Assembly (NCBI RefSeq): GCF_037154075.1
Contig: NZ_JBANRJ010000001.1
Span: 3,777,501-3,841,500 of the forward strand
Reading direction: 5' to 3'
Source of the DNA: Sphingobium aromaticiconvertens
GTDB taxonomy: Bacteria > Pseudomonadota > Alphaproteobacteria > Sphingomonadales > Sphingomonadaceae
DNA length: 64,000 nt
Position numbers and translations under genes: made by a program. Below, in pieces: positions 14,922-61,207 of the stretch. Under the pieces are notes generated by a model. It was given only the letters and a program-made list of their open reading frames with translations, did not search any database and was not told the DNA's origin. Every line of letters begins with the position of its first letter. Within the stretch, counting starts at the first letter, position 1.

Positions 14922-15095
14922 AGAAATCCCCTTTCAAAAGTGTCACGAAGGACTACTGAAATCCTTTATCGAGTGGAAAGTTTCATGGCAAGCGTACAAT
15001 TGCCGAAACTGTTGCAAAAATATCTCAGAAACAGCAACTTCCAAGAGTTCGGCAGCCGTTGGCAGGCACATATCCACGGCGAAAAGCCCATTCTC

Positions 15096-15599
15096 TCAGG
15101 CGTCGATCAGCCCGTGATTTCGCATCGCCGTTAAAATTGCGGCGATAGCATCGCGAGAGGCTTCGTCGATCGTGCTTCCCCCCGCCGGGTCAGCGATGGC
15201 AGCAACCCTCTCACCCACGACGCGATTTCCACCCACATGCATGCCGTCCGCGCGCATCGGTCCGTCAATCCAGTCGGCGCCGTCAAAAATCATCGCATGT
15301 CCGCGATCGGCAACGCCTATCGCCAATCCCGCACGCGGCATGACGAAGCGCCACCCCCCTTCCGTCCAGCAGGCAATTGCGCTGTCCTGTCCCGTCCAGG
15401 CGCCATTCGCGCCGTCCGCCACGATCCAGCAGTTGCCGATCGCGAGCGAAACGGGCGGCTCAGCCAGATCCGCGCTTTCAACAATGCCGTGGAGCAGCAT
15501 GTCGATCCGCGCCAACGCTTCGTTGTGAAACAATTCCTTCTGCGCTTGGCCTGCATGAAGCAGCGGCAAGTCCCAGCGCGGCGTTGCGTCCTGCGTCAT
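15096..15599 (-). CDS. DUF2793 family protein, distal GTA gene
   Basis: This 167-residue protein begins MTQDATPRWDLPLLHAGQAQKELFHNEAL, the characteristic start of DUF2793, which is found at the tail-fibre end of alphaproteobacterial GTA and prophage clusters. A middle GNCWIVADGANGAWTGQDSAIA and a WRFVMPRAG segment are also typical. It is probably a minor tail or attachment component. It lies 36 bases after gp15 and is the last gene of the cluster. Confidence 0.8.
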   Translation of the reverse strand: MTQDATPRWDLPLLHAGQAQKELFHNEALARIDMLLHGIVESADLAEPPVSLAIGNCWIVADGANGAWTGQDSAIACWTEGGWRFVMPRAGLAIGVADRGHAMIFDGADWIDGPMRADGMHVGGNRVVGERVAAIADPAGGSTIDEASRDAIAAILTAMRNHGLIDA

Positions 15600-15635
15600 C
15601 CTGTTGATCCTTCCTCAAAAATGTCATTCGTTGTT

Positions 15636-40104: not shown

Positions 40105-40179
40105 TCCCCGATAGCTCAGCGGTAGAGCATTCGACTGTTAATCGAATGGCCGTAGGTTCGAATCCTACTCGGGGAGCCA
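40105..40179 (+). tRNA. tRNA-Asn (anticodon GTT)
   Basis: The cloverleaf reads TCCCCGA acceptor, GCTC D-arm, TTCGA anticodon stem with CTGTTAA loop, GTAGG-TTCGAAT-CCTAC T-arm, TCGGGGA and encoded CCA. The 3' part is the integration site of the mobile element: the recombinase stop codon at 40165 lies inside it. Confidence 0.97.
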
Positions 40180-41733: not shown

Positions 41734-41806
41734 TTTCTCTGTCCTGAATCCTAACAAACGCCGTCCCATCCCCCCCCTTCCCTCCACTAAACGGCGAAGG
41801 ACATAA

Positions 41807-42199
41807 TTATGTGGGTGGCGATCGACGTGACTGTCTTCGCTTTTCATAATCGGATTTCCGAGACCGTCCACGGGGTTTGCCCCGAGGGTTCTTTTCCCGG
41901 ATCGCTGCGGTCGGATCAACGGCGGACACCTCCCACTCGACGAGCATCCAGACATAATCGGCGAGATTGCCTAGCATGTTTCTGGCCCCGTTTTCGGAGA
42001 CTTGCCGTTGCATTCTCTGCTCGAAGAGCGCCTGAGCATCGAGAACTAACTGCCGCGACAGCGCGCCTCTCCTGACCGTCCAACGGTCCTCTCTGCCGGA
42101 CGGTTCATCCACGAAAGGCACGCGCGCCGTCTCGTCTACCTCATCGGAGACAGGTTTCGCCTCTCCATAGGTGGTGGAATCGAGCCTGGTCCGCCTCAT
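41807..42199 (-). CDS. Hypothetical protein of the element
   Basis: I do not recognise this 130-residue hydrophilic protein. It has a central helix-rich block (ALSRQLVLDAQALFEQRMQRQVSENGARNMLGNLADYVWMLVEWE) and a basic tail (KPRGRSRKSDYEKRRQSRRSP) that may bind nucleic acid. The ATG overlaps the end of the lytic transglycosylase gene by four bases, so it belongs to the transfer operon. Confidence 0.65.
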   Translation of the reverse strand: MRRTRLDSTTYGEAKPVSDEVDETARVPFVDEPSGREDRWTVRRGALSRQLVLDAQALFEQRMQRQVSENGARNMLGNLADYVWMLVEWEVSAVDPTAAIREKNPRGKPRGRSRKSDYEKRRQSRRSPPT

Positions 42200-42729
42200 T
42201 GCTTCACCGACGAGCGATCAGAGCCAAAGACGCGGCTACCGAAGCGATTCGCCAGATGGCGCGATACGGCGGCGGCATACCTTCGCTGTCGCCAAGCCGT
42301 TGGACTATGATAGACGCCGACCGCTTTCCAATAGTCGCGTGTTACGGACAGGCCTTTGAGGAATATCCATCTCGCCGCCTGCACGTTGAAGCATGGATCG
42401 CGAATCAGCCAAGCGCGCACGTCGGCGGGCGGGCGACCCACAGCATTAGCGAGCTTCGGCACCCAGAAGCTGTTGACCTGAAGTGGACCGAGGTCATGCG
42501 TGCCGTTGGTGTTGGCGATTTCGGCACCGATCCAGCCTGCCTCTTGGTCGCGCAGACCCCATAAGGTTTTTTCAAGCCAAGCACGGCCGCCTGATGCCTG
42601 CCGAATGCAGTCACCTATGCGAGCCTCGTGAATAGCCGCCGCCACAGGCCGCGCATTCGCGCCCGCTGGAGCAACAATCAGGATGAGCAGCGTCAGAAGC
42701 CGGCGGGTATGTCTGGCGTTAGCGATCAT
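42196..42729 (-). CDS. Lytic transglycosylase of the conjugation system (VirB1-like)
   Basis: Opens peptidoglycan for assembly of the transfer apparatus. The 177-residue protein has a signal peptide (LLTLLILIVAPAGANA), the catalytic Glu in LRDQEAGWIG, and the substrate-cleft block NTNGTHDLGPLQVNSFWVPKL. Two Cys residues (DCIRQ and DPCFN) may form a disulfide. The start at 42729 overlaps the relaxase gene end. Confidence 0.88.
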   Translation of the reverse strand: MIANARHTRRLLTLLILIVAPAGANARPVAAAIHEARIGDCIRQASGGRAWLEKTLWGLRDQEAGWIGAEIANTNGTHDLGPLQVNSFWVPKLANAVGRPPADVRAWLIRDPCFNVQAARWIFLKGLSVTRDYWKAVGVYHSPTAWRQRRYAAAVSRHLANRFGSRVFGSDRSSVKQ

Positions 42730-45703
42730 GGCCGGCGTCGTGATCCTGGGAGGGCGCGTGGGCAGATTCAGGAGCCGGTCGCGGCGCGGTCGTAGCGGAC
42801 CGCCCGTCTTCGTGATCCTCTGCTTGGGCGGGACTTCGGTCGAGCAGCGAGACAATCCATCGATCCAGAATGGTCGCTGCGGACTGAGCACGGCTGGCGA
42901 TGCGTTTGGCTATCCCCCTCGGACGAGAGATTTCCGAGGGTTCTCGTTGCGCCGCGGACCGATCCTCGCGGGCCTCGCGGGCCTCGCGATCGGTACGCTG
43001 CTCGGCTCGGAGCCGATCCCAGCGTTCCCCGTGGCGGGCCGTCCGGCCCCTGACGCTGTCCCGTTCGATCCGTCCCAGACCCTGGAGCGAAGAGGTCTTC
43101 TCGCCCGAGCGCTGTTTCAGCTTTTCGACCAGCCGCTTCCGGTCCTCTGTCCAAAGCTTCGCGCCGAACCTCGCGCGGGTGATGGCGGTGTAATAGTTCT
43201 GGCCAGTGACGAGCGGCGAATTCACCGGCGCAAGGACGTAGACCCGATCGTAGGTCTTGGACTGCGCGGAATAAACGGTTTCGCCGTAACCATGGTCCCA
43301 GTTCTTGTGCTGAGACAGATCGATCTCCTGGTTCCTGCCGTCTCGATCCCAGCGGATTGTCGCGAGGGTACCGTCGAGTCGCTCGACGGTGCCGCGCTCG
43401 GCATTTTTGAGATCCAGATCCTTGTTGACCAGACGCCACTGGATCCGATCGCCGGCGGCAAGAACGCGCGCTTCTTCCCTGAACACATTGATCTGGGAGG
43501 CCCGCCCTAGCCGGGGGTCCCAATGGATGCTTCGGCCATGCTCATCGACCAGATTGACTGTCTGGCGTCCGCGAGCATCCCGCCCGACCCCAATCACCTT
43601 GTATTCGGCATCCCGGGCGATCCCGAGCCCAACATTGTCGCGGGAGAACACCACGACCTGTCCTCGGGAATAGAAGCGCGCGAAATGCTTCTCCTGGTCG
43701 GACATGCCGGAGGGTGACAGGATTGAAAGCCGAGTCTCTTCGGCCGCGATGGCGTCCTCGGTTTTTAGAGCTTCGCGGACCTTGGTGTTGACGATCAGGC
43801 GGGTGGCATTCTCCAGCACCAGGATGTTGGTCTTCGCCCGTCCCTCGGGCGTCAGGCGCGTCCAATCAGCGACCAGAGACTCCGCAAGCTTCTCGCTGGT
43901 TTCGCCGCTAATGACCTTGTCCAGGGCCCCGATCGAACCGTCATAATTCTGGAGACGGGCCAGCCGGACGGCCTGCATGATCTTGTCGTCTTGCTGGCGG
44001 ATTGGATCCTTCAGCTCCGCCCTGGGCATACCCAATCGCATCATCAGCCAGAAGGGTTTGCCCTGCTCGATTGCTCCTGTCTGACGGGTGTCACCGAGCA
44101 GGATGATACGCGCGCCGGTGGTCCGGCTGATCTCGAGTAGACGGATCGCCTGGCGGTTACCGAGCTGCCCGGCTTCGTCGATCAAGAGGACATGGCTGTC
44201 GTCGAGCCTCGCCCCGCCGGTGGCGAGCAGACTCGCCACCGTGCGCGATTCGATATTGGCTTTTTGACCCAATTCACCGGCAGCCGATGAGGTGGGAGCC
44301 AATGCTATCAGGGTGGCACTCTCCCCTACGGCTTCGCGTAATGCGCCGATGATGGTCGACTTTCCGGAGCCGGCCACACCGTGCACGGCAACAACCCGAT
44401 GGTCGGTCGTGCCGATATGGAGAAGCGCCGTTCTCTGCTCTGACAAGAGATTGTGGGCAATCCCGGCGTCGCGGAGCGCCTCGACGGATGCGAGTGGCCG
44501 CGCGTCGTTTAGGGCGAGCGCCAGATGGTCCGACAATGCCATTTCCAGGCGGGCCGTCTTCCGTGTGGTTCGGCCGCGCGTGTGGATTTCGTCACCAGTG
44601 CGATGCCGGGTTTCCAGGAGCTTGGCCCGCGCCTGATGTTCCTCGACGACGGGTCGGATGTCCGAGAGGCGAACCTCCCCGACATGCGAGGCCAATGCGG
44701 TCTGCAACAGTCGCCCGAGATTGTTGACCGCTTCCTTGCCTTCAGACTGGCGAAGGCCGAAGAGCATTGCGCGTGCAGCGGTCGCGAGCTCGACTTCGAT
44801 CTTCCGCTGGCCGGCTCGGTCGGCGCTCGCGCGAGTCTCATTCACCGCCTCGGCATGTTGGCCAAGTCGACCATCCCATCGCAGGTGCAGGTCTTCGAGC
44901 GACACCTTCTGCTTTGGACCGCGGGTAACGTAGAAGGCCTGCTGCCGCGCCGCCTGCCCGGTCAGACCATGTTCCTTCGCATGAGCTTCGATCTGCTCGG
45001 CGCGCTGGGACATCTCGGTGATCAGATCCCTGGGAACGCCCTTGATTTCGAAGAGGCCGCGCCGGGGATCGAACTCGACCTCATAACCAAGCTCCTTGAG
45101 AAGGTGCGCCAGTTCGTTCCGATAGACCTGTCCCGCTGCCATCTGCTCGGCGAACATGGCGCGCGTCTCGAGGCTGACCTTCTTTGCGCCATCACGTTCA
45201 TCGGTGATGTTCATGACGACGACATGGGTGTGAAGATGAGGATCGAGCTCGCGCGACGCATGTTCCGTGAAACGAGCGTAGATCAGGCGCCCGGTCGTCT
45301 TCTCGACAACCTCTCTATCGACGCGATGCCGCATTGTGGCATGCTCTTCGAGGTAGGAGAGCGCGACCCCGACCGCCCGCTCATGCGCCTGTACGATACG
45401 ATCATCGCCTGCCACGAGCGCCATGATCGAGACCGATTTCGGAGCGTTGACCGCGAAATCCCAGCCCGGATGATGCTGGATGTTGCCATCCTTGCGGCGA
45501 CGGCCAAGCTGTTGATCACCAACCTTGCCGGCAAGAAGCTCCTTGAAAACGCCGGGATCGACCTTCCCTTCAAGGCCGAGTTCGGCGGCGATCTTGCCAC
45601 CCCATTCGGAGTGCTCGTCGGCACCTTTGGTGTAATAGTCGCCGACGGTATAGTAGCGGGCGATGTTCGCGGGTTTCCCCTTCAGGCGGATGGGATTGAT
45701 CAT
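42719..45703 (-). CDS. MobF-family conjugative relaxase/helicase (TraA/TrwC type)
   Basis: Nicks oriT and unwinds DNA for transfer. The 994-residue protein has N-terminal Tyr pairs (RYYTVGDYYTKG, residues 17-24), the three-His metal site (HLHTH, residues 156-160) and a RecD-like helicase domain with Walker A AGSGKST at 444-450. Further helicase motifs include LIDEAGQLGN and YYTAITRARFG near the C-terminus. A long charged C-terminal tail follows. It overlaps traD by four bases. Confidence 0.93.
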   Translation of the reverse strand: MINPIRLKGKPANIARYYTVGDYYTKGADEHSEWGGKIAAELGLEGKVDPGVFKELLAGKVGDQQLGRRRKDGNIQHHPGWDFAVNAPKSVSIMALVAGDDRIVQAHERAVGVALSYLEEHATMRHRVDREVVEKTTGRLIYARFTEHASRELDPHLHTHVVVMNITDERDGAKKVSLETRAMFAEQMAAGQVYRNELAHLLKELGYEVEFDPRRGLFEIKGVPRDLITEMSQRAEQIEAHAKEHGLTGQAARQQAFYVTRGPKQKVSLEDLHLRWDGRLGQHAEAVNETRASADRAGQRKIEVELATAARAMLFGLRQSEGKEAVNNLGRLLQTALASHVGEVRLSDIRPVVEEHQARAKLLETRHRTGDEIHTRGRTTRKTARLEMALSDHLALALNDARPLASVEALRDAGIAHNLLSEQRTALLHIGTTDHRVVAVHGVAGSGKSTIIGALREAVGESATLIALAPTSSAAGELGQKANIESRTVASLLATGGARLDDSHVLLIDEAGQLGNRQAIRLLEISRTTGARIILLGDTRQTGAIEQGKPFWLMMRLGMPRAELKDPIRQQDDKIMQAVRLARLQNYDGSIGALDKVISGETSEKLAESLVADWTRLTPEGRAKTNILVLENATRLIVNTKVREALKTEDAIAAEETRLSILSPSGMSDQEKHFARFYSRGQVVVFSRDNVGLGIARDAEYKVIGVGRDARGRQTVNLVDEHGRSIHWDPRLGRASQINVFREEARVLAAGDRIQWRLVNKDLDLKNAERGTVERLDGTLATIRWDRDGRNQEIDLSQHKNWDHGYGETVYSAQSKTYDRVYVLAPVNSPLVTGQNYYTAITRARFGAKLWTEDRKRLVEKLKQRSGEKTSSLQGLGRIERDSVRGRTARHGERWDRLRAEQRTDREAREAREDRSAAQREPSEISRPRGIAKRIASRAQSAATILDRWIVSLLDRSPAQAEDHEDGRSATTAPRPAPESAHAPSQDHDAGHDR

Positions 45704-47745
45704 GCCGGCCTCGCTGTGTTGCGGGCGCCGTCATGGCGGCCGTGCTGGCTGAGGCGAAATCCCGCGGGCTTGCCGAACAGCTCAAGCGGGGGTGAAGTGG
45801 GTGCCGGTTCGTTGTCCCCGTTCGGATGGGACGGCGACATCGGACCAGCACTTGGGGCGCCATCCGATGTTCCTGTCTCTTCTGGTGGCGGAGGAAGTGG
45901 CAGCTCGGCCTCGTGCGCCTTTGGATCGGGCCGGCGTCGCTTCTGGGTGCCCGCCCTCGGCTTAGCCGGAGGCGGCGGCGTAACCGAAATAGGCGGCGCC
46001 GGTGGGACCGCGACCGCCAGCCGAATGGGCGGTGCTCCGCGCTCCTCGAACGCATCGGCGACAGAAGCGACCTTATGGTAGCTGTCCTCGAACCGGACCA
46101 CCGGCAGGCTGCGTCCGAAGCGCAGATAGCCCACCAGATTGGGCAGGTTGGTGACCTCGGTGTGCATGACCAGGGGCCGCGTCACCTGCATGCGCGAGAG
46201 GTTCACACCGTCGCGCATGTCGTTCACGCCATAGGACATGCCTTCGTTTGCCTCGACCTGCTCGACCTGGCCGAGGTTCTCGCTGACATGCTTTGCGGTC
46301 GGGGTGTCGTTGGCTCTGAGCGCCACCCACGTCGAGCAGTAGCCGGTGATCGCTGCGGCGTCCTGGATGCCGTAAGTCGCCTCGAGCTGAGGGTAGCTCT
46401 GAAAACCGAGGATGCCGCAGCCGCCGTATTTCCGGGCGCGGGCAAGGAAGTCGCCGAGCGAGGGCAGACGCTGGAGCGTCGGCAACTCGTCGATGACGCA
46501 ATAGAGGCGGCGGCTGCGATCGGCTGTCATACTCATGATCGCGCTGATCGCGATGTCGAGCCACACCGTGATCAGGGGGCGGAGCGAGGGAAGCTGGTCC
46601 GCCTTCACGGTGATGAAGAGCCAGCTGTCGTCCCTTTCGTTGGCAACCCAGTCGCGGATCGAGAAGCCGTCGGCGGTATCGTCGAGATAGGAGAAGCTGC
46701 GCATGACGGAGGCGAGCTCGGCCTGGATGCCGGCGCTGGTACGCTCGCCTTCGGTCGAGATGAACGCCGCCGCATCGGTGCCGGCGGCGAAAGCAGCGAG
46801 GTCCTTCAGCTTGGAGCGCAGCAGCGTGTCGAGCAGGATCGAGACGAGAGTCCGTTCCTGGCGCGCCAACTTCCGCAGGACGGCGACCAGAGTCCCGCGC
46901 GCGGCCTTTGCCCAGAAGGGATCGCCAGTCTTGTCCGGGATCGTGGACTCGGCGATCTGGTCGTAGTGATAGTCGCGAGGAACATCGACCCAGGGCGACC
47001 AGCAATCCGCCCGGGCGTCGAGCGGGTTCAACAGCACGTCGATACCGGGCCGGTAGAATTTCTCGACGAAGGTTCCGGCAGTGTCATAGACGATGGCGCG
47101 GCGCTTCCGCTTGCGGATGCCGTCGAGCATCTTGACGATGATGTTGGTCTTGCCGGTGCCCGGAGCGCCGCAGATGAGAATGTGCTCCGGTTCGAAGGCG
47201 TCGGGCACGTTGACGCCGCCGATTTCGAAGCTGCCCCTGGCGTAGCGCCAGAGCGCGCGGCGAACCTGCCGAACGGTTCCAAAGCGCGCGCCGCGCAGGA
47301 ACTGGTTGGAGCCAAGCCCTCTCCCCGTTCGGGTGAAATAGAACCAGGCCCAGAAGAGCATGGCGAGGGCGAAAAGCCCGGAGAGCGCTGCACCGTGTAG
47401 CAGGTAGGTCTCGAAGGCAGCGAGCGTCTTGTGGGCAACACCGGAGTCGAGCAAGCCCTTCGGCGTCGTCCAATACTGCTTGCCCGCCGGAGTCTTGAAG
47501 AGGATCGGGGTCGCGTTGCCGGGAACAGTGTCCCCCATGAAGGCCGCCTGGCCGAGCTTCACCAGAACGAAGCGCTCATACTCTGAGGATTTCTCAAGCG
47601 CGTACCAGATGATCCCACCGATCCAGATGACCAGTCCTGCAAGGAAGGTCTGGTAGAAGACCTGGGTGGTCATCCGGACGTTGTGGACGATGGCTTGCCC
47701 GCCGCGGGTCCAGGAGCCCAGCGTGTCGTGGCGGAAGATGCTCAT
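45700..47745 (-). CDS. traD: Type IV coupling protein TraD
   Basis: Inner-membrane ATPase that hands the relaxase-DNA complex to the T4SS. The 681-residue protein has two N-terminal helices (about 29-50 and 115-137), Walker A APGTGKT near 194-200, Walker B VIDELPTLQ near 418, and a TraD C-terminal domain. A Pro-rich tail ends it. It lies directly between the relaxase and the RHH gene, overlapping both by four bases. Confidence 0.93.
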   Translation of the reverse strand: MSIFRHDTLGSWTRGGQAIVHNVRMTTQVFYQTFLAGLVIWIGGIIWYALEKSSEYERFVLVKLGQAAFMGDTVPGNATPILFKTPAGKQYWTTPKGLLDSGVAHKTLAAFETYLLHGAALSGLFALAMLFWAWFYFTRTGRGLGSNQFLRGARFGTVRQVRRALWRYARGSFEIGGVNVPDAFEPEHILICGAPGTGKTNIIVKMLDGIRKRKRRAIVYDTAGTFVEKFYRPGIDVLLNPLDARADCWSPWVDVPRDYHYDQIAESTIPDKTGDPFWAKAARGTLVAVLRKLARQERTLVSILLDTLLRSKLKDLAAFAAGTDAAAFISTEGERTSAGIQAELASVMRSFSYLDDTADGFSIRDWVANERDDSWLFITVKADQLPSLRPLITVWLDIAISAIMSMTADRSRRLYCVIDELPTLQRLPSLGDFLARARKYGGCGILGFQSYPQLEATYGIQDAAAITGYCSTWVALRANDTPTAKHVSENLGQVEQVEANEGMSYGVNDMRDGVNLSRMQVTRPLVMHTEVTNLPNLVGYLRFGRSLPVVRFEDSYHKVASVADAFEERGAPPIRLAVAVPPAPPISVTPPPPAKPRAGTQKRRRPDPKAHEAELPLPPPPEETGTSDGAPSAGPMSPSHPNGDNEPAPTSPPLELFGKPAGFRLSQHGRHDGARNTARPA

Positions 47746-50997: not shown

Positions 50998-51101
50998 TGT
51001 TGATTGCCGTTGAGAAGTGACCCGGGGAAGCCAGTAATTTCCACTGAGAAGTGACCCATGTTTGAACACGTCCCTGGCTTTGACGAGCGGGGGACCATGG
51101 A

Positions 51102-52634
51102 GTGTTGGACATGGCATTATTGAGCGTTATCCGGCGGTGGCATTACCGCGATCATCTATCGATCCGGGAGATAGCCAGGCGCACCGGTCTTTCCCGCAAC
51201 ACCGTTCGTAAATATCTGCGGTCGGACACGATCGAGCCGCAGTTCAAGGTGCCGGAGCGACCGAGCAAGCTGGACCCGTTCGTCGAGCGGCTGACAGCCT
51301 GGCTGAGGCGGGAGATGGGCCGTCCGCGCAAGCAGAAGCGCACGGTCAAGCAGTTGTATGCCGATCTGGTGAGCCTCGGCTTTGACGGTTCCTATGGCCG
51401 TGTCGCGGCCTTTGCCCGGGACTGGCGTGATGATTATCGCCGCCAGCAGCAGATGAGCGGCAGAGGCACCTTCGTGCCGTTGTCCTTCGCACCGGGTGAG
51501 GCGTTCCAGTTCGACTGGAGCGAGGACTGGGCGATCATCGATGGCGTGCGCACCAAGCTGCAGGTCGCGCACTTCAAGCTCAGCTACAGTCGCGCCTTCT
51601 TTGTGCGGGCCTATCTACTGCAGACCCACGAGATGCTGTTCGACGCCCATAATCATGCGTTCCGCGTGCTGGGCGGCGTGCCGCGACGCGGCATCTACGA
51701 CAACATGAGGACTGCCGTCGACAAGGTCGGGCGCGGCAAGAGCCGGACCGTCAACGCCCGCTTCCTGACGATGGTGAGCCATTATCTGTTCGAGGCCGAG
51801 TTCTGTAATCCGGCCGCTGGGTGGGAGAAGGGCCAGGTCGAGAAGAACGTGCAGGATGCACGGCATCGCCTGTGGCAGCCTGTCCCCCAGACTCAGAGCC
51901 TCGACGCTTTGAACATCTGGCTGGAGGAGCGCTGCAAGGCGCTATGGCAGGATATTCCGCACGGAATCGAGCCCGGGTCTGTCGCTGATGCCTGGGCGGA
52001 TGAGGTGGCGAGCCTGATGCCGACAGGCAGGGCGTTCGATGGCTTTGTCGAGTATGGCAAGCGGGTCTCACCGACCTGCCTCGTCCATCTCGAGCGCAAC
52101 CGCTACAGCGTGCCGGCGTCGTTCGCCAACCGCCCCGTCAGCCTGCGCGTCTATCCCGACCGCTTCCTGGTGGTCGCCGAGGGACAGTTGCTGTGCGAAC
52201 ACCAGCGTATCATCGAACGATCCCACGATGGGCCGGGGCGCACCGTCTATGACTGGCGCCATTATCTGGCGGTGGTGCAGCGCAAGCCAGGTGCCCTGCG
52301 CAATGGGGCGCCGTTCCTTGAACTGCCTGATCCCTTCCAGCGGCTGCAGCGGCATCTGTTGCGGTCTCCTGGCGGTGACAGGGAGATGGTCGAGATCCTG
52401 GCCCTGGTGCTGCATCATGACGAGCAGACCGTGCTGACGGCCGTCACGATGGCGTTGGAGGGGGGCGTTCCAACCAAGACCCATATCCTCAACCTCCTGC
52501 ACCGTCTGCTCGACGGCAAGCCGCTGACAACGCCGCCGGTCACGGCGCCACAGGCGCTGAGACTGGTCAGCGAGCCGATGGCCAATGTCGAGCGCTATGA
52601 CGCTCTGCGTCGGGAGAGCCGCCATGCGTCATGA
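51102..52634 (+). CDS. istA: IS21 transposase IstA
   Basis: DDE-type transposase of 510 residues. It has an N-terminal helix-turn-helix ([24 protein letters not shown]) and the catalytic core, with the first Asp in [12 protein letters not shown], the second region in [13 protein letters not shown], and a Glu in [15 protein letters not shown]. No frameshift is visible. Its stop overlaps the istB start. Confidence 0.95.
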
Positions 52635-53406
52635 TCCCGCCAGCGGCGCTATTATCGTCATGCTGCGCAGCCTCAAGATGCACGGCATGGCGCAGGCCGT
52701 TACCGATCTCATGGAACAGGGTGCACCGGCGTTCGATGCCGCCATCCCGATCCTGTCCCAGCTCCTGAAGGCGGAGACTGCTGAACGAGAGGTGCGATCG
52801 GTATCCTATCAACTCAAGGCTGCGCGGTTCCCGGCCTATCGCGACCTGGCAGGCTTCGACTTCGCCAGCAGTGAGATCAACGAAGCGCTGGTGCGCCAGC
52901 TTCACCGCTGTGAGTTTATCGACGTTGCCGACAACATCGTGCTGGTCGGCGGCCCCGGCACCGGCAAGACCCACATCGCGACAGCGCTGGGCGTTCAGGC
53001 CATCGAGCATCATCGAAAACGGGTGCGGTTCTTCTCCACCGTCGAGTTGGTTAATGCGCTCGAACAGGAGAAGGCCCAGGGCAAGGCAGGCCAGGTCGCC
53101 GGAAGGCTCGCCCACGCCGATCTCGTGATCCTCGATGAGCTCGGCTATCTGCCGTTCAGCGCCTCAGGCGGTGCATTGCTGTTCCATCTGCTCAGCAAAC
53201 TTTACGAGCGCACCAGCGTCATCATCACCACCAACCTCAGCTTCAGTGAATGGGCCACCGTGTTCGGTGATGCCAAGATGACCACAGCGCTGCTCGATCG
53301 GCTGACCCATCACTGCCACATCCTTGAAACCGGCAACGACAGCTTCCGGTTCAAAAACAGCTCTGCTCAGCAGCCCACAGCGCGAAAGGAGAAAACCTCA
53401 TCTTGA
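52624..53406 (+). CDS. istB: IS21 helper ATPase IstB
   Basis: AAA+ ATPase of 260 residues that loads IstA and selects targets. Walker A is [11 protein letters not shown] near residue 120, Walker B is [13 protein letters not shown] near residue 168, and a [13 protein letters not shown] sensor follows. Translation starts at ATG 52624, overlapping istA by 11 bases. Confidence 0.95.
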
Positions 53407-53467
53407 CCCAACGGTGACATCCGAAACATAATCGCAAGGTGGGTCACTTCTCGATGAAAACCCCGGG

Positions 53468-53548
53468 TCACTTCTCAACGGCAATCAACACCATCCCTTT
53501 GTCAAGAACTCCGGCTCGGGCAACCAATATGAGATACTGCAACGCCAT
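53468..53548 (-). pseudogene. Truncated lasso cyclase (C gene) start, cut by IS21
   Basis: An ATG (53548-53546) overlaps the B stop as TGATG and reads MALQYLILVARAGVLDKGM before entering the IS21 right end at 53490, after about 19 native codons. The frame ends within the IS. In proteobacterial lasso clusters the gene after B is the asparagine-synthetase-like macrolactam cyclase C, and a YLILV-type first strand fits its N-terminus. The assignment rests on position and start coupling more than sequence. Confidence 0.65.
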
Positions 53549-54222
53549 CAGGCTGCAAATATCGGCGTGAAGCAGCGAACCCGTTCCAACGTATCGTTGA
53601 GAACGAGACCGCTGGATTGAACCCATGCGTGCGCCGAGAATGGATCCAGAGTCACCCCGATTACGAGGGTAGCCCTCACGCCACTTGCCTTACACATCCG
53701 CGTGAAAGCAATTGATCGAGGCAGACATTGGTCCCGCTGCCTAAATATCCCGGCGGTAGCCCGAAATGCCGTCGCGATGCGTGTCAACCGTGCATCGGCT
53801 GCCTCGCTCCTATCAGGAAGCTGAGAAGGTGTTGGTCCCAGAAGATCGGCAAGGACCTCTACCATAGGTCGCGTGCGAATCCCCAGCCAGGCCTTTAGCT
53901 GATAGACTGCAGCGCGAGCAGCATCGACCCGATGACGTCGCATTGGTTCGAGCGCGATGAGTTCAGAGCTAGCTGGTACAATCGTGGAGGGACGGCGACC
54001 GCCACGTGGTGCTGTGCAATCGGTCACCACGACACCCGTTGATCTCAGGCGCCCGAGGTCGAGTTGATCTCGTTCTTCTGCAGGCTCGCAATTCCACAGT
54101 CTGAGAAATGCCGAGCCAACTTCCTCGGGAAGCATGAAATACCTATCGGCCTGAGTATCCAAGAGAATAATGCGCCCCGTGCAACTGCAGCAATAGATGT
54201 TCTCTCGGATTGTGAAGTCCAT
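53548..54222 (-). CDS. Lasso peptide B protein (RRE plus transglutaminase-like leader peptidase)
   Basis: Binds the precursor leader and cleaves it. The 224-residue protein has an N-terminal PqqD-like RRE domain (residues 1-85; ILLDTQADRYFMLPEEV is characteristic) and a C-terminal transglutaminase-like protease domain. The Cys-His-Asp triad is Cys166 (RDQCLPRS), His198 (SAHAWV) and Asp210 (VLNDT). The start at ATG 54222 has a GGAGAAGG site. It lies 51 bases after the precursor gene, in the common order A-B-C. Confidence 0.9.
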   Translation of the reverse strand: MDFTIRENIYCCSCTGRIILLDTQADRYFMLPEEVGSAFLRLWNCEPAEERDQLDLGRLRSTGVVVTDCTAPRGGRRPSTIVPASSELIALEPMRRHRVDAARAAVYQLKAWLGIRTRPMVEVLADLLGPTPSQLPDRSEAADARLTRIATAFRATAGIFRQRDQCLPRSIAFTRMCKASGVRATLVIGVTLDPFSAHAWVQSSGLVLNDTLERVRCFTPIFAA

Positions 54223-54237
54223 GTGCCTTCTCCGGTA

Positions 54238-54267
54238 GCGGACGCACACTGTGGGGCGTGCGTCCGC
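54238..54267 (-). promoter_or_regulatory. Hairpin between lasso precursor and B gene
   Basis: GCGGACGCAC and GTGCGTCCGC form a perfect 10-bp stem with a 10-base loop, in the 51-base space between precursor stop and B start. Without a T-run it is likely a message-stability or attenuation element, letting more precursor than enzyme be made. Confidence 0.65.
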
Positions 54268-54273
54268 ATCGTT

Positions 54274-54414
54274 TCAGTCGTCGGCGATCCCGGGGCCGGT
54301 CAGATCCCGACCGTTCTGGTTATCGAAGATGACCGACTGGCCGCCCTTGGTGGCTTCGGTCGCGACGCCGAGATCGATCAGCGCATCGATGTTGTGATCG
54401 TCATTCCGTTCCAT
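54274..54414 (-). CDS. Lasso peptide precursor (A gene), 46 residues
   Basis: This short gene is easily missed. The start ATG at 54414 follows GATGAGGAG. The leader is residues 1-23, with LIDLGVATEATK, putting Thr at position -2 (T22) as lasso proteases require. The core is residues 24-46, beginning GGQSVIFD, so Gly1 can form a macrolactam with Asp8 (eight-residue ring). Asp8 is the only acidic residue at positions 7 to 9. It is placed directly before the B gene. Confidence 0.85.
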   Translation of the reverse strand: MERNDDHNIDALIDLGVATEATKGGQSVIFDNQNGRDLTGPGIADD

Positions 54415-54490
54415 GACACACTCCTCATCAACTGCCGCGTGAATGGCGGCAATTTAGAGTAGTGCCATTCTGAACTCACGTGGTGCGAAT

Positions 54491-54515
54491 ATATCGCGAC
54501 AGGTTGGCGCGATAT
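54491..54515. promoter_or_regulatory. Candidate operator upstream of the lasso precursor gene
   Basis: ATATCGCG and CGCGATAT form an 8-bp inverted repeat separated by nine bases, about 80 bases before the precursor start. It fits a dimeric regulator site such as that of the adjacent GntR or XRE protein. The DNA between the GntR stop and the precursor is AT-rich in part and likely holds the promoter. Confidence 0.5.
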
Positions 54516-54593
54516 TCTGCGGTAGACGGCGGAGAGGTCGTTCGCGACCAGCGGCCACTGGGACTCCTTTATTAAATGACTGAATTTATTTAG

Positions 54594-55229
54594 TTATTCT
54601 GATGCCTGCCCCATTTGGATAATATGCTGTTGACGGCATATTTTCCTCAAGTGGTAGGCTTCTATTCTCCTTCGCAAAGCTTTTTGAAAATCCGCGACTT
54701 GAGGGCGCGTGAGAGTCGAAAGTTCCCTTTCGGCAATCTTCGGTTCGACGGCATCTGCAATTCTCGCGTAGTGGAGTCGTTCGTTCAATCGACGGACATG
54801 GATTGATGCTTGGTTATTTCCTCCTGCATCAGCCAGTGATGTAAAGATTTCCATTGTTCGCGACGCGAAAGCCACCGCGGAGGAATCCTCGACCATGTTG
54901 GAATATTGCTGAAGGGCACGTCGCAGCGCAGGTTCTCTCAGACCCGAGATACACGCCATTATCAGCTGCATATGCCACTCGAGGAGCTCAATGAGCTCGG
55001 CTGGCTCGATGATCGGAACCAAGAATCCCCCATCTGCATGGTGCATGAAAATCCCCTCGCCGACGAGGATAAAGGCAGCCTCGCGAACGGGGGTCTTGCT
55101 TGAGTGATGCCGGTTGGCGAGGTCCTGGATGTCGATCCGTTTGCCCGGAACGAACTGACCGGCCAGGTAGTCGGCCTTCAGCCCAAGATATACACGCTCC
55201 TGCAATGGAGGGTCCATTGCCGACATCAT
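54594..55229 (-). CDS. GntR family transcriptional regulator
   Basis: This 211-residue protein starts MMSAMDPPLQERVYLGLKADYLAGQFVPGKRIDIQDLANRHHSSKTPVREAAFILVGEGIF, a GntR winged HTH. A helical C-terminal ligand domain (FCD-like, EWHMQLIMACI) follows. Its start overlaps the XRE stop (ATGA). It is the likely regulator of the lasso operon just downstream. Confidence 0.85.
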   Translation of the reverse strand: MMSAMDPPLQERVYLGLKADYLAGQFVPGKRIDIQDLANRHHSSKTPVREAAFILVGEGIFMHHADGGFLVPIIEPAELIELLEWHMQLIMACISGLREPALRRALQQYSNMVEDSSAVAFASRTMEIFTSLADAGGNNQASIHVRRLNERLHYARIADAVEPKIAERELSTLTRPQVADFQKALRRRIEAYHLRKICRQQHIIQMGQASE

Positions 55230-55645
55230 AGTCCGGCTCCTGCCGGGACCGGAGGACTCGCCCACGCCGGGGTGAGAGCCTGGGTCAGGTGATCCAAATT
55301 TCGCTGCGCAATCATCTCGATGCACATGCGCTCAAGATCGCTGAGGTCTCCCATTGCCAACTGCCGTGGAAAGCACATCTTCTGCCCCGCGAAGAGCAGA
55401 GGAATGAGGATGTGGCCGGTCGAGAGCTCCAGTTTGTAGGCGCAGACAAGATGATCATCGAGCCGCGAACGGGGATTGCCGGCTTCGATTTCACGAAGCC
55501 AACGCACACCCATGCCGAGCTCGCGAGCCAGATCGCGCTGCGTCAGGCGCCGTTTCTTCCGTGCCTCTTCAATTTGCCGCCCCGATTGCACCTTCACATA
55601 CAGGATCGGACTTTCAGCAACGGAAGTCGCTATCAAATGCGACAT
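55226..55645 (-). CDS. XRE-family transcriptional regulator
   Basis: This 139-residue protein has an N-terminal helix-turn-helix (RQIEEARKKRRLTQRDLARELGMGVRWLREIEAGNPRSRLDDHLV, residues about 22-67). A helical tail (LSDLERMCIEMIAQRNLDHL) ends it. It precedes GntR and the lasso genes on the same strand with overlap, so it may be the first gene of the regulatory-lasso unit. The ligand is unknown. Confidence 0.82.
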   Translation of the reverse strand: MSHLIATSVAESPILYVKVQSGRQIEEARKKRRLTQRDLARELGMGVRWLREIEAGNPRSRLDDHLVCAYKLELSTGHILIPLLFAGQKMCFPRQLAMGDLSDLERMCIEMIAQRNLDHLTQALTPAWASPPVPAGAGL

Positions 55646-55757: not shown

Positions 55758-56207
55758 TTATCCAGCAAGATCATGGGTATCCCGGATAGCAGGCGTTCTG
55801 GCTCCCGATTGTAGAGCGCGATCAAACGCGCGCAACAGCGCCGACTGGTCGGCCGTGGTGATCTGCCGGAGCGCCAGGATGTAGATCATGCCGAGGGTCG
55901 GCGCCCGGCCTTCCGCCATGTGACCCTGGACGCGTTCGGTAATGCTTGTGGCGATATTCCAGAGTTGGTGCGACGCCCCGACATGATGCTCCTCACTTCC
56001 ACCAAAGCCGGCGAGTTCCGGCTCCTTCAGTTGGTCGGCAATTATGCTGGGTGGTAGGGTATTCAGATGTTCGATCGCCACGTGAAGCGTGGTTCCCCAG
56101 GCGATCAGCGAGCGCGTAACGCGAATCAGATGGCAGTGGGAATCGATCAGGACGTCAAGGCCTGCGGATGAAAGCCGGAGTTTGAAGCTGCGTCGTGCTC
56201 GACCCAT
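55758..56207 (-). CDS. Hypothetical protein upstream of the lasso regulators
   Basis: This is a 149-residue protein I do not recognise. It has a helical N-terminus (RSFKLRLSSAGLDVLIDSHCHLIRVTRSLIAWGTTLHVAIEHLNTL), a His-rich middle (GGSEEHHVGASHQLW), and a helical end (IYILALRQITTADQSALLRAFDRALQSG). Nothing suggests a signal peptide. It ends 112 bases before the XRE gene and its role in lasso or transfer functions is unknown. Confidence 0.55.
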   Translation of the reverse strand: MGRARRSFKLRLSSAGLDVLIDSHCHLIRVTRSLIAWGTTLHVAIEHLNTLPPSIIADQLKEPELAGFGGSEEHHVGASHQLWNIATSITERVQGHMAEGRAPTLGMIYILALRQITTADQSALLRAFDRALQSGARTPAIRDTHDLAG

Positions 56208-56550
56208 TGCCTGTCTCTCCTGCCTGACTAGTGCGCCGGCACCCGTTCGCGAACCCGAACAGGTGCTTTTGCAAGACGAACGGAGGCAAAAGCGGCATTA
56301 TAGTGCCGCTTTACGCCAAATCTGATCGTCTCGACATTCCTCGACTTCATCGATCCGTTCTGCTCTATCTCTTCTTTGTTGCGCCGCTTCGGCACTTCAG
56401 TGCCCTGCCTATTGCGGCAGTCGTTCGAGACCGCCATTGCTGTGAACGCACCGGATTGGGGGAGGTCTAGAACCTAACTCCAGCTCCACCGTCCGGACCA
56501 TCCAAACCCCAGACCCGAGCGCCTTGCGGCGCCATGAGGAGACGCGTGCC
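56208..56550. other. Intergenic region before the T4SS operon
   Basis: This divergent region contains the hairpin AAAGCGGCA/TGCCGCTTT (56289-56297 and 56304-56312). It must also hold the promoter of the plus-strand T4SS operon. I see no convincing gene; short frames on both strands lack coding character. Confidence 0.45.
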
Positions 56551-56868
56551 ATGGACTTTCCATGCTCCCCGCCCATGCTTGCAGCAGTCCTTCTGCATGT
56601 CATCGGCGCCAATCCCGCCAGCGGCCAGAGCTATCGTCCCGACGCGGAAGCCTATCCTTGCGCCCGTACCGCCCAACTCGCGGTCGTCCAGGGCGAGACC
56701 GGCTTTTCGATCCGCGAAAAGGCCGACTCTGTCCCGCCTCCCCCTGCGGCGACACCGGCGCCTCTGTCGGCGGCGATCAAGCTCGGAAACTCGCTCACTC
56801 TCGACAGGCGAATTTTCGCGCGCACCTCCCTCGTTCGTCCGGAGTCCTCCGATGTCCCGCAGCGGTAA
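56551..56868 (+). CDS. Small exported protein, first gene of the T4SS operon
   Basis: This 105-residue protein has an N-terminal hydrophobic stretch (MLAAVLLHVIGANPASG) that may be a signal peptide, followed by a Pro-rich middle. A single Cys lies near residue 37 in EAYPCARTAQLAVV. It precedes dsbC with a 17-base overlap. I do not recognise it; alternative starts at 56551 and 56575 both fit. Confidence 0.5.
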   Translation: MDFPCSPPMLAAVLLHVIGANPASGQSYRPDAEAYPCARTAQLAVVQGETGFSIREKADSVPPPPAATPAPLSAAIKLGNSLTLDRRIFARTSLVRPESSDVPQR

Positions 56869-57616
56869 ACTGATCCTGGCTGCGCTACTTTGCGCGTCGG
56901 CTCCCGCCTATGCGCAAGAGAACAGCGCCGAGCCGCTCACGGCGGCGGCCGCGGAGGCTCAGCGTCAATTGCGCCAGACCTTCACCAATCTGACCTTCGA
57001 GGACTTCGGTCCGGCGCCTGTCAGTGGTCCGATATATCAGGCTATTGCCGGTGGACGAGTCATCTATTTCGCGCCGGAGAGCCAGCATCTGCTCTTTGCG
57101 GCGATCTACGACAAGAACGGGGTCAACCTGACAGCGCTGGCGCAGGATGCGAGCGCCAGGAAGCGCCTCAGCGCGATCAATCCCGCAGAGGCCCTTGTGA
57201 TAGGGCCTGCAGGCGCGCCCAAGGTCATAGAGTTCACCGATCCCGACTGTCCCTATTGCCAGGCGCTCGAACGCTTCTGGCTGGCCAAGGAAGCCGAGGG
57301 GAAACCAGTCCAGCGCCTCGTCTACTTCGTGAGCGGTATTCACCCGCAGGCGGCAGCGAAAGCCGAGCATATCCTCTGTTCCCCGGACAGCCAAGCGGCC
57401 TTCAAATCCGTCTACTCCGGTGCTCAGCCTGCCACGCTGCACAAATGCCGTCCCGGCGCCGAGAAGGTCGCCCGCGACGCCGAAACCGTCCGCAAGATGG
57501 GCGTCTCAGGCACGCCGACGCTCTTCGTCAACGGCAAACTCGTTTCGGGCTTCCAGCAGGCCGAACTCGAAGCGTTCCTCGAGACCGAAAGCCGGAGACC
57601 CAAGCCCAGTCCCTGA
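56852..57616 (+). CDS. DsbC-family thiol:disulfide interchange protein
   Basis: Periplasmic disulfide isomerase, probably for T4SS proteins. The 254-residue protein has a signal peptide (LILAALLCASAPAYA), an N-terminal dimerisation-like domain, and a thioredoxin domain with CPYC at residues 133-136 and cis-Pro in SGTPTLF. A second Cys pair (LCSPDS, HKCRPG) is also present. F-type systems often carry such a chaperone (TrbB/DsbC). Confidence 0.88.
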   Translation: MSRSGKLILAALLCASAPAYAQENSAEPLTAAAAEAQRQLRQTFTNLTFEDFGPAPVSGPIYQAIAGGRVIYFAPESQHLLFAAIYDKNGVNLTALAQDASARKRLSAINPAEALVIGPAGAPKVIEFTDPDCPYCQALERFWLAKEAEGKPVQRLVYFVSGIHPQAAAKAEHILCSPDSQAAFKSVYSGAQPATLHKCRPGAEKVARDAETVRKMGVSGTPTLFVNGKLVSGFQQAELEAFLETESRRPKPSP

Positions 57617-58229: not shown

Positions 58230-58496
58230 GTGGACGAACGACTTCCGCAGTTCCTGCACCGGCCGGTCCAGATCCTCTGGTTTGACAGTCAGGAGTTCAT
58301 CGTCGTGATGAGCGTGATCTTCGTCGCGGTCATCGTCGGCGGAATCATCGGCTGGTCGCTCATCGGCGCTCTTCTCCTCTTCATTCCCTGGAAGCGGACC
58401 AAGCCGCGCGGCTTCATCCCGCACCTGGCCTGGCGATGGGGCCTTGCCCGCTTCCGCAACTATCCGGGTCCGACCCAGACCCGCTTCTTCGAGTAG
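58230..58496 (+). CDS. traL: Type IV conjugative transfer protein TraL
   Basis: Inner-membrane component of the pilus assembly machinery, 88 residues. It carries DERLPQFLHRPVQILWFDSQEFIVVMSVIFVAVIVGGIIGWSLIGALLLF, one or two membrane helices with the TraL start. A GTG start at 58230 follows AAGGGAGAAGG. It lies directly upstream of traE. Confidence 0.88.
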   Translation: MDERLPQFLHRPVQILWFDSQEFIVVMSVIFVAVIVGGIIGWSLIGALLLFIPWKRTKPRGFIPHLAWRWGLARFRNYPGPTQTRFFE

Positions 58497-58501
58497 GCGA
58501 G

Positions 58502-59137
58502 ATGGCACATCCATTCCGACGCAAGGCAGCGGCCGACATGATCGGCGACACGCGCCCGAGCTGGCACCTGCATCGCTATCTGCAGGGATCGGCCAACCTG
58601 TTCGAGGAGAACCGGCTGCTCAAGGTGGCGATCGCCGGCTTGTTCGGCATCACCGCGGTGCTCGGCACGCTCATCTACACCTCGAATCAGAACACGCGCA
58701 CCGTGATCGTGCCCTTCGGCGCAGACGGCGACCTCTATGTGACGGGGAACAAACCGTCGGAGAGCTATCTCCGCTCGATCACGTTCAACATCGTGGGCCT
58801 CGCCGGCACCTATTCCGCTTATTCGGCGGACCGGCAGTTCCAGGAACTGCTGCGGATCGCGCATCCCAGCGCGTATAATGGCCTGCGCGACAGTCTGAAC
58901 CGGCTGCTCGATGAGCTTGGCAACAATCCGACGCTCTCGATCGCGACCTATATCCGCGGCGACCAGCCCGTCACATGGACGGGCAGCGAAATCCTCGTGC
59001 CCGTCGAAAAGGTCCGTGTGATCGGCGGCGTCATCCGCAAGTTCCGCGGCAATCTGCGCATTCGCTACGCGCTCGAGAACGGCCGCTTCTGGCTGACTGC
59101 CCTCCAGGAGGAGAATTTCAGTGCCGATGTCCGGTAA
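58502..59137 (+). CDS. traE: Type IV conjugative transfer protein TraE
   Basis: VirB5-like or pilus assembly inner-membrane protein of 211 residues. It has an N-terminal helix (LLKVAIAGLFGITAVLGTLIY) and a periplasmic domain (TRTVIVPFGADGDLYVTGNKPSESYLRSITFNIVGLAGTYS), which is the TraE signature. The ATG at 58502 lies five bases after the traL stop. It overlaps traK. Confidence 0.9.
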   Translation: MAHPFRRKAAADMIGDTRPSWHLHRYLQGSANLFEENRLLKVAIAGLFGITAVLGTLIYTSNQNTRTVIVPFGADGDLYVTGNKPSESYLRSITFNIVGLAGTYSAYSADRQFQELLRIAHPSAYNGLRDSLNRLLDELGNNPTLSIATYIRGDQPVTWTGSEILVPVEKVRVIGGVIRKFRGNLRIRYALENGRFWLTALQEENFSADVR

Positions 59138-59915
59138 CCGCGCGAGGCTCGCTTGCCTCGCGGGGGCGTTCGTCGCGTCCCTTCCCGCTTGCGTTCCCGC
59201 ATTCGCCCAGTCGATCGCGGCACTGCCCGATCAGACGAGTCGCATCCGGCTCTCCAATCGCGACGTCAATCATGTCGTGTGCGTCGGCGGCGACATCGAG
59301 GACGTCAAATTCTCGGCCGAGAAGGGCCTCGCGGTCGAACGCGGTGGATCTGACGCATGGATCAAGTTCCTCGTCCTCGAAACCGAAGATCCGGGCGCGG
59401 CGCCAGGCGACATGAAGACGCGCACCTATGTGACGACACCGTCCGAATTCTTCGTCTCGTGCAACGGCGCAATCTATCCGCTCTACACCGAGCCCGCCGA
59501 CATTCCGGCCCAGACCGTGACGCTGGTCCCCGGCGGGGCACAGCGCGCGCGCGCCAATGATGCGCTTCTGGGCCCGTTAGTGGAGGAAGAGCGGGCTGTC
59601 GGGATTGCGCTCGCGATCCTGCAGGACCGGGTGCCCGCGTCGTTCTCCGAGGTGGCACCGTCCCACGACAGGCTCACCCTTGCCGACCTTCCCACGGCGT
59701 CGCTCAGTGAACGGCGGCGTCTCGAAGTCGAGGGCGCCGGGCTTTCGGTCAGTGAATATCTGGTCCGCACCAGCGTCGCGATCACGCTTGATGAACGCGA
59801 CTTCCTCGATACGGCGCTTGGGGCCGACATCTTTGCCATCACGATCGACCGACTGACGCTGGGTCCCAATGAGACGGCTCGGCTGATCGTCGTTCGCCGG
59901 AGTGTCCAGCCATGA
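59121..59915 (+). CDS. traK: Type IV conjugative transfer protein TraK
   Basis: Outer-membrane core secretin-like component (VirB9-like), 264 residues. It has a signal peptide (LACLAGAFVASLPACVPAFA) and the TraK pattern (SRIRLSNRDVNHVVCVGGDIEDVKF, then YVTTPSEFFVSCNGAIYPLYTEPADIPAQTVTLV). Its start overlaps traE by 17 bases and its end overlaps traB by four. Confidence 0.9.
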   Translation: MPMSGNRARLACLAGAFVASLPACVPAFAQSIAALPDQTSRIRLSNRDVNHVVCVGGDIEDVKFSAEKGLAVERGGSDAWIKFLVLETEDPGAAPGDMKTRTYVTTPSEFFVSCNGAIYPLYTEPADIPAQTVTLVPGGAQRARANDALLGPLVEEERAVGIALAILQDRVPASFSEVAPSHDRLTLADLPTASLSERRRLEVEGAGLSVSEYLVRTSVAITLDERDFLDTALGADIFAITIDRLTLGPNETARLIVVRRSVQP

Positions 59916-61207
59916 CAGCGCCCGAAGAGAAACCTCAGGGAGAGGCTGGCCCGTCGGCCCGTCAGGGTGGCGACGTCAACGAGACGGCGAATCTCCCGCG
60001 CCCGGCTCTGCTCGATCTGCCGGCGCAGTGGTCGAAGCTCAGTTCCAACCAGAAGTTACGCGCCAAGCAACTGGGTGTCGTATCGACGATCGCACTGCTT
60101 GGCCTCGGTCTCTACACGGCGAGCACCAGCGGCCAGAAGGAGGCGCCCAAGGCGCCCCAGGCTTCCAATCTCGACATGGGCGCGGGTCTTCGCGGCGACA
60201 GCCTCGAGGTGAAGCTGCGCGGCGATCTCCAGAAGATCCTCGACGGACAGACGCTGCTCGGAGACCGGGTGACTGCGATCGAGGAAGGCAAGGTGGTCCC
60301 GGGCGCCGCCGACACCGGCCACGCCCAAAGCGCGAGCGGCGACGGAGACCTTCCGCCTGCCCTACCCGGCGAGGCCCCCGCCTACCCGCCCGCTCCTCCC
60401 GACGCCAGGGGCGCAGCCGACGAAATCCCTGCGCCGCCTACTGCTCCGGCGGCACCACCCGCGCCGCCCACGGAACGGCAGGTTGGCGCGATCGGCGCGG
60501 CGACCGCCACGCAAGCGGCGGAGGGAGGCGCGGGCGGCGGGGCCGCGTCAAAAAAAGGGAAGCGGACGATCTATTTGCCACCTGGTTTCATGAAGGCGCG
60601 GCTGCTGACCGGTATCGACGCGCTGGCAAGCCGGGACGCGACCAGTAATCCCGAGCCGATCATCGCCCGGGTCCAGGCGCCCGCCGTGCTTCCGAATGAG
60701 GTGAAGGCCAATCTCGCCGGCTGCTTCGTCATCGGCAACGCGACCGGCAGCCTCGCCAAGGAGCGGGTCGAGATCCAGCTCGTCTCGATCTCGTGCGTCG
60801 ATTTCGAGAGCCACGCGGTGGTCGACCAGGCGATCAAGGGCTTCTTCGTCGATGCCGATGGAAAGAAGGGGCTGTCCGGGAAGGTCGTGACCCGCGCCGG
60901 CGCGACGCTCGCGCGCTCGTTCATCGCCGGGACGATCGCCGGCATTTCGCAGTCGGTCGAAGGTACGTTCGGGAGCCTCTCGACCTCGGCGCTTGGCAGC
61001 GTGCGCAGTCTCGACGCGGGCGATGCCGTCAAGTCGGGCGTTGCCGGCGGGCTCTCCAAATCGTCGGACAAGCTCACCGATTTTTATCTCGATCTCGCCC
61101 GCCAGGCCGGCCCGGTGGTCGAAGTCGGCGCGGCCAAGGATGTCGTGGTCGTCATCCAGGAAGGCCTCGCCCTCGAGATCAAGCCGTCGGTCGGAGCCAA
61201 ATTCTGA
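59912..61207 (+). CDS. traB: Type IV conjugative transfer protein TraB
   Basis: VirB10-like core channel protein of 431 residues. It has one membrane helix (GVVSTIALLGLGLYTAS) near residue 60, a Pro-rich periplasmic spacer (about 125-190), and a beta-barrel C-terminal domain (IYLPPGFMKARLLTGIDALA, then AGATLARSFIAGTIAGISQSVEG). It bridges the two membranes with TraK and TraV. Confidence 0.93.
   Translation: MTAPEEKPQGEAGPSARQGGDVNETANLPRPALLDLPAQWSKLSSNQKLRAKQLGVVSTIALLGLGLYTASTSGQKEAPKAPQASNLDMGAGLRGDSLEVKLRGDLQKILDGQTLLGDRVTAIEEGKVVPGAADTGHAQSASGDGDLPPALPGEAPAYPPAPPDARGAADEIPAPPTAPAAPPAPPTERQVGAIGAATATQAAEGGAGGGAASKKGKRTIYLPPGFMKARLLTGIDALASRDATSNPEPIIARVQAPAVLPNEVKANLAGCFVIGNATGSLAKERVEIQLVSISCVDFESHAVVDQAIKGFFVDADGKKGLSGKVVTRAGATLARSFIAGTIAGISQSVEGTFGSLSTSALGSVRSLDAGDAVKSGVAGGLSKSSDKLTDFYLDLARQAGPVVEVGAAKDVVVVIQEGLALEIKPSVGAKF

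Follow-up and report, generated by a model that had tools for sequence, protein, structure and literature searches.

A probable remnant of a benenodin-family lasso peptide cassette at a recurrent address within a family of F-type conjugative elements

We analysed a 64,000-nucleotide stretch of the genome of Sphingobium aromaticiconvertens (NZ_JBANRJ010000001.1, positions 3,777,501 to 3,841,500; the window), which very probably carries a decapitated remnant of a lasso peptide cassette of the isopeptidase type (benenodin family), situated at a recurrent address in F-type conjugative elements. Taken alone, the broken cluster is a degraded one of an ordinary kind; what sets it apart is where it lies. 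Among 94 genomes of the genus, 55 of 120 matches to the lasso B protein (short, weak ones included) lie at this one address, behind a likely conjugation regulator, which raises the question of whether the peptide has an effect on transfer, exclusion or maintenance.

Precursor, B protein and cyclase fragment

The cassette and the insertion sequence that ends it comprise the following features.

54274-54414, minus strand: lasso precursor A, benenodin/subterisin family, 46 residues (NF033522, PF24178)
53548-54222, minus strand: lasso B protein, RRE and transglutaminase-like protease, 224 residues (triad C166/H198/D210)
53491-53548, minus strand: first 19 codons and one base of the presumed lasso cyclase C; the frame enters IS21 and stops at 53468
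50998-53490, plus strand: IS21-family insertion sequence, 2,493 bp, with matching inverted end repeats and IstA/IstB
51102-52634: IstA, within IS21
52585-53406: IstB, within IS21

The original prediction had described the gene at 54274-54414 as a lasso precursor that is easily missed. When run against curated lasso models it scored above both cut-offs (NCBIfam NF033522, benenodin, 36.7 bits with a cut-off of 33; Pfam PF24178, Subterisin, 43.6 bits with a cut-off of 27), and the two matches cover the protein nearly end to end; the gene is thus a lasso precursor as proposed, and one that current NCBIfam models do detect. Direct reading of the leader end (...DLGVATEATK) and of the core that follows, GGQSVIFDNQNGRDLTGPGIADD, located the predicted Thr at -2, Gly1 and Asp8, with Lys at -1 (TK/GGQSVIFD), placing an acidic residue within positions 7-9, and the ring would be expected to join Gly1 to Asp8. 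A search of PDB sequences with the precursor gave no lead.

The B protein likewise exceeded the cut-offs of its models (NF033537, 81.8 bits, cut-off 33; PF13471, 79.9 bits, cut-off 26), and both the A and B reading frames are intact. An RRE and a Cys-His-Asp triad had been attributed to it. The triad held up in an alignment of 23 B proteins, in which Cys166 and His198 never vary and Asp210 hardly does, while the RRE found weaker backing, in a profile match (E 0.056) of the N-terminus to a chain of TfuB1, which we take to be an RRE protein.

The B stop codon overlaps by one base (TGATG) an ATG at 53548, and the reading frame opened there continues for 19 codons and one base up to the end of the insertion sequence at 53490, as had been predicted and as we read directly. 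The residues encoded, MALQYLILVARAGVLDKGM, resemble the starts of lasso cyclases, for example MALRYLILIGSA from locus L071. Cyclase N-termini were read in 32 other clusters, and the 25 with an offset of -1 or -4 from the B stop were used for scoring, the others (L021, L084, L052, L051, L075, L060 and L101) being left out by hand; against these 25, MALQYLILVARAGVLDKGM ranked first of 3,709 starts in the window, above the 3,708 others. This short piece provides good evidence that the third gene was a lasso cyclase C, an assignment originally made by inference, and 19 codons are all of an asparagine synthetase-type cyclase that is present at the cluster. The overlap between B and C is of one base in 16 of the 32 other clusters and of four bases in 9, with other offsets in 7, counts biased toward overlaps given that the script picked the start closest to the B stop.

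Complete relatives are like known isopeptidase-type clusters (astexin, benenodin, sphingopyxin) in containing genes for a GntR regulator, precursor, B protein, cyclase, isopeptidase, TonB receptor and sigma/anti-sigma factors, and the layout with GntR before the precursor is described in PMC9266682. The window cluster differs from these in that C is cut after 19 codons and the isopeptidase, receptor and FecR/sigma genes were not found, and also in adjoining a transfer operon, a feature that the part of that review consulted here does not mention.

The surrounding conjugative element

The genes on either side of the cassette and of IS21 place it within a transfer region.

40105-40179, plus strand: tRNA-Asn, overlapped by the end of the recombinase gene
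40165-41955, minus strand: large serine recombinase, its gene ending inside tRNA-Asn
42719-45703, minus strand: TrwC-type relaxase (PF08751, 281 bits)
45700-47745, minus strand: TraD-type coupling protein (PF10412, 413 bits)
54487-54517: palindrome before A, putative GntR operator
54594-55229, minus strand: GntR-type regulator (PF00392, 32.8 bits)
55226-55645, minus strand: HipB-like helix-turn-helix (HTH) regulator (profile matches)
55758-56207, minus strand: U149, a protein of 149 residues with no Pfam family and a TraY-like model
56294-56307: palindromic site GGCAY-N4-RTGCC, copy 1, between U149 and the transfer operon
56391-56404: copy 2 of the same site
56852-57616, plus strand: DsbC-like protein, head of the divergent transfer genes (PF10411, 55.1 bits)
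58230-61207, plus strand: TraL, TraE, TraK and TraB of a divergent F-type type IV secretion system (PF07178, PF05309, PF06586/PF23536, PF03743)

The cassette lies behind U149, HTH and GntR and opposite DsbC-TraL-E-K-B, and TraD, the relaxase and the recombinase lie beyond IS21. Given that the TraL-E-K-B set, TraD and a relaxase are all present, together with a recombinase at tRNA-Asn, the region is an F-type conjugative element and a probably integrated one, with the recombinase and tRNA-Asn (40105-41955) as its likely border. No repeat of the tRNA-Asn end that could serve as an attachment repeat was found in the window or 20 kb beyond, and the ends of the element were not found.

The region is like the F plasmid (traM-traJ-traY-traA-traL-traE-traK-traB) in its TraL-E-K-B order, its TraD and TrwC-type relaxase, and a TraY-like model near traL, but unlike it in that U149 points away from the transfer operon, shows no sequence match to TraY in our searches, and leads into the HTH, GntR and lasso genes. 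The U149 model consists of two strand-helix-helix repeats, and its best structural matches are F-plasmid relaxosome entries (TraY); searches of Pfam and of PDB sequences with an alignment of U149 matched no TraY family or structure. Relatives of U149 fall in 151 protein clusters at E <=0.001, and among the 120 clusters listed the named ones come from sphingomonads. U149 may be a TraY-type protein with a tandem ribbon-helix-helix fold, and is a likely conjugation regulator.

Plasmid pCHQ1 of Sphingobium indicum UT26S has the same gene order, with a benenodin-family cluster in which cyclase, receptor, FecR and sigma genes are annotated. It differs from the window in that no break is seen, and its relaxase is of MOBP type (PLSDB typing) rather than TrwC-type. 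In the stretch of pCHQ1 that we read (63018-87665, L103) the isopeptidase gene is unlisted, yet there is a tblastn match at 14422-16470 of that stretch.

Recurrence of the address

A search for U149 matched 8 of 397 genomes of the family, at 10 places, and 3 records among 72,556 plasmids; with L017, which was found through a search for B rather than U149, these make up 14 loci. All 14 lie beside F-type genes, and 12, the window among them, contain a lasso B gene. The remaining two are L110, where a contig edge follows just after a benenodin-like precursor, and L111, with no lasso match. Cyclase sequence stands next to B in 11 of the 12, the window being the exception, although one of these cyclases (L050) is truncated at an IS21-type element and one (L107) is cut by a contig end; isopeptidase and TonB-receptor sequence is present in 9 of the 12. 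The original prediction had asked for related A-B pairs followed by an intact cyclase gene, and this comparison supplies 11 other loci with a cyclase after B, all of them distant relatives (B is about 30-35% identical in the closest elements). Nearer B proteins exist (P0122-P0128, 81-48% identical to that of the window) as sequences without neighbouring genes, and there is a hint that some of them are encoded alongside U149.

A scan of 94 genomes of the genus, a sample that overlaps the 397, gave 67 matches to U149 and the 120 to B. A B match lies within 6 kb of U149 in 55 of the 67 cases, in all 55 on the same strand and downstream, at a spacing of 1,986-5,381 bp (median 2,085). The other 12 copies of U149 have no B within 6 kb (three of them lie less than 600 bp from a contig start, and one is 6.8 kb from a weak B match), and 65 of the 120 B matches are elsewhere; a lasso cassette is therefore not required for the element. 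In the same scan, among the matches listed, a B match was present within 10 kb of at least 53 of 79 places with the divergent type of TraE and of at least 3 of 71 with the main type. In the 397 genomes, 23 TraE places are of the divergent type: nine with a lasso B gene, one with a precursor only, at a contig edge, and 13 where the stretch read gave no lasso match, contig ends having cut two of these stretches to about 4 and 10 kb.

Linkage to transfer genes was also seen in a scan of 119 genomes of the family. Outside the present genome, at least 12 of 23 benenodin-type clusters (those whose cyclase scored about 89 bits or higher by tblastn) lie less than 60 kb from a transfer marker, with 1.4 expected, and at least 4 of 36 other lasso B genes do so, with 1.6 expected (P about 0.07), both expectations assuming uniform placement and rounded genome sizes, without correction for accessory regions or shared ancestry. 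The same address is found again on plasmids pCHQ1 and pBSY17_1 and on the V4 plasmid.

A second conjugation linkage was observed at L014, L072 and L079, where benenodin-type clusters stand directly beside VirB10/VirB9/VirB6-like genes (in L014, VirB10 by a PF03743 match, VirB9 and VirB6 labelled by eye). In genome G011 a lasso cluster is apparently split between contigs, with the precursor at the start of C11 (L110) and B, C and isopeptidase at the end of C9 (L071).

Conservation of the slot and its contents

Compared with five close elements, the window proteins are 95-98% identical for TraE, 87-92% for TraB, 82-90% for TraK, 87-94% for DsbC and 86-94% for HTH, falling to 69-76% for U149, 64-69% for GntR and 30-35% for B. 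It is the slot that is conserved; its lasso content changes.

A tree of the cyclases was built from 34 of 36 pieces (L091 and L107 were too short, and the window contributed no piece). In this tree of 34 rows, which is a single one with long branches and in which L071 was set as F-type on an inferred join of C9 to C11 in G011, the F-type-linked cyclases need five label changes, at least three of them forced by supported branches. We therefore conclude that cassettes entered or left the slot on more than one occasion. A single founding event for all F-type-linked cyclases was considered and rejected on the same five label changes.

Regulation and a possible role in transfer

The GntR gene, with its start as assigned, begins within the stop codon of HTH, the two genes overlapping by four bases, and the HipB-like HTH gene is present also in related elements that have no lasso cassette. 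The palindrome at 54487-54517 is possibly the operator of GntR; a similar dyad occurs in L017 (imperfect), L050, L106, L107 and L108, with the arms changed together. The site GGCAY-N4-RTGCC, paired between U149 and the transfer operon, also occurs singly in the window at 17920 and 51465. A common operator for the transfer and lasso promoters was rejected, since the palindrome before A and GGCAY-N4-RTGCC differ.

In intact relatives the cassette follows the TraY-like, HTH and GntR genes, all divergent from the transfer operon, and lasso expression might in this way be tied to the state of the element. Carriers would produce their own peptide, take it up again and linearise it. A 2022 review (PMC9266682) calls the biological role of lasso peptides with an isopeptidase enigmatic, which is why a linkage to conjugation is of interest, and states that hydrolysis by isopeptidases is confined to peptides from their own cluster. 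A Sphingomonas B2 mutant is reported to have lost the use of phenanthrene (PMC11006600). The titles and abstract openings that we searched, a coverage that leaves most subscription journals outside, contained no tie of lasso clusters to conjugation genes.

A transfer-linked role for these lasso peptides is offered as a proposal that can be tested. In its specific form, the sphingomonad lasso peptides at this address would be element-encoded signals, with the TraY-like, HTH and GntR proteins tying production to transfer control and each element supplying its own peptide, matching receptor and isopeptidase, so as to tell carriers of other carriers (a type-specific pheromone or exclusion system) rather than to kill. 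We regard this form as speculative and rather unlikely to be right in full.

A better-placed explanation, to which we give a little under an even chance, is that the cassette is passenger DNA which shares a slot with conjugation genes and has no functional tie to them; this bears on the coupling and leaves the reading of the window as a remnant untouched. Accessory islands gather many gene clusters, and both the 65 B matches away from U149 and the 13 divergent-type TraE places without lasso genes (two of them in short, contig-cut stretches) are what a passenger would lead one to expect. Against it, order and strand are fixed in all 55 U149-B pairs, the supported label changes in the cyclase tree show a slot repeatedly filled or emptied, and GntR, on the assigned start, opens inside the HTH stop codon.

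IS21 and the missing genes

The genome contains seven full-length copies of the IS21 element, including that of the window, all listed as 100% identical (six of equal bit score, one slightly lower), together with short weak matches and four long partial stretches, apparently the pieces of two interrupted copies. Inspection by eye revealed no target duplication in the flanks of the window copy, and only the copy in L030 among the seven has one. The missing part of C is absent among the PF00733 matches of the genome (completeness 99.97): there are eight matches in seven genes, of which three are cyclases of other lasso clusters (one matched twice) and four are away from any PF13471 or lasso B match. 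Searches by tblastn with the three proteins covered, isopeptidase, TonB receptor and FecR, gave no match in L016 or L112.

Since a target duplication is lacking and the genome shows no further piece of the cyclase, the rest of C and the isopeptidase, TonB receptor and FecR/sigma genes have probably been deleted, and we infer that the deletion adjoins IS21. The insertion sequence would have entered C, and a later deletion bounded by it would have removed the remaining genes; recombination between IS copies is an alternative that would also leave no target duplication. The lasso locus is dead in cis, there being no second part of the window C in the genome, which agrees with the original claim that it should be dead unless a cyclase acts in trans. 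The loss of the cyclase was called correctly, but it extends further, since no isopeptidase, TonB receptor or FecR/sigma gene was found either; the original prediction named neither this wider loss nor the conjugative element around the locus. The B protein may still cleave the leader, which would yield at most a linear peptide.

The original prediction had also asked whether a C gene exists elsewhere in the genome. Three do, each in another lasso cluster with its own B (C1 at 2.72, 4.64 and 1.35 Mb), so that supply of a cyclase in trans would be possible. Transfer genes stand beside each of the four lasso clusters in this genome, in three cases of this F type and in one of VirB type. We consider it improbable that the A-B pair still functions with one of these cyclases closing the ring: the A and B frames are intact, and the precursors of the other clusters are also of the benenodin family, with leaders that share the pattern DLG...T.G, but the window B shares just 24-34% identity with the B proteins of those clusters, and the isopeptidase and receptor genes that normally go with such a pair are missing as well. 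That the lasso cluster here was incomplete from the outset, with foreign DNA always to the left of IS21 and an A-B fragment brought in by the rearrangement, fits the lack of a target duplication and the failure to find homologues of the DUF736-TraD-relaxase segment left of IS21 in the next 20 kb of three relatives, but is very hard to credit given that the 19 codons of C begin precisely where B stops, sharing one base as in 16 of the 32 other clusters (by a script favouring the nearest start), and that GntR, HTH, U149 and the transfer genes stand in their usual order.

As a decapitated remnant, the window copy is a natural knock-out, and so is the copy in genome G057, where a different IS21-type element is involved; pCHQ1 of Sphingobium indicum UT26, with no break seen, offers a named system. 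In the G057 copy (L050, 10135-13771) C is truncated at about codon 405, by reference to a 589-residue relative, and neither isopeptidase nor TonB receptor was matched in the remainder of L050 or in the 20 kb that follow. In the present genome, a copy of the same IS21 also interrupts the TonB receptor in another lasso cluster (L013, 11286-15977; G000 C1, about 2.729-2.734 Mb), and this copy has in turn been interrupted by a second IS21-type element.
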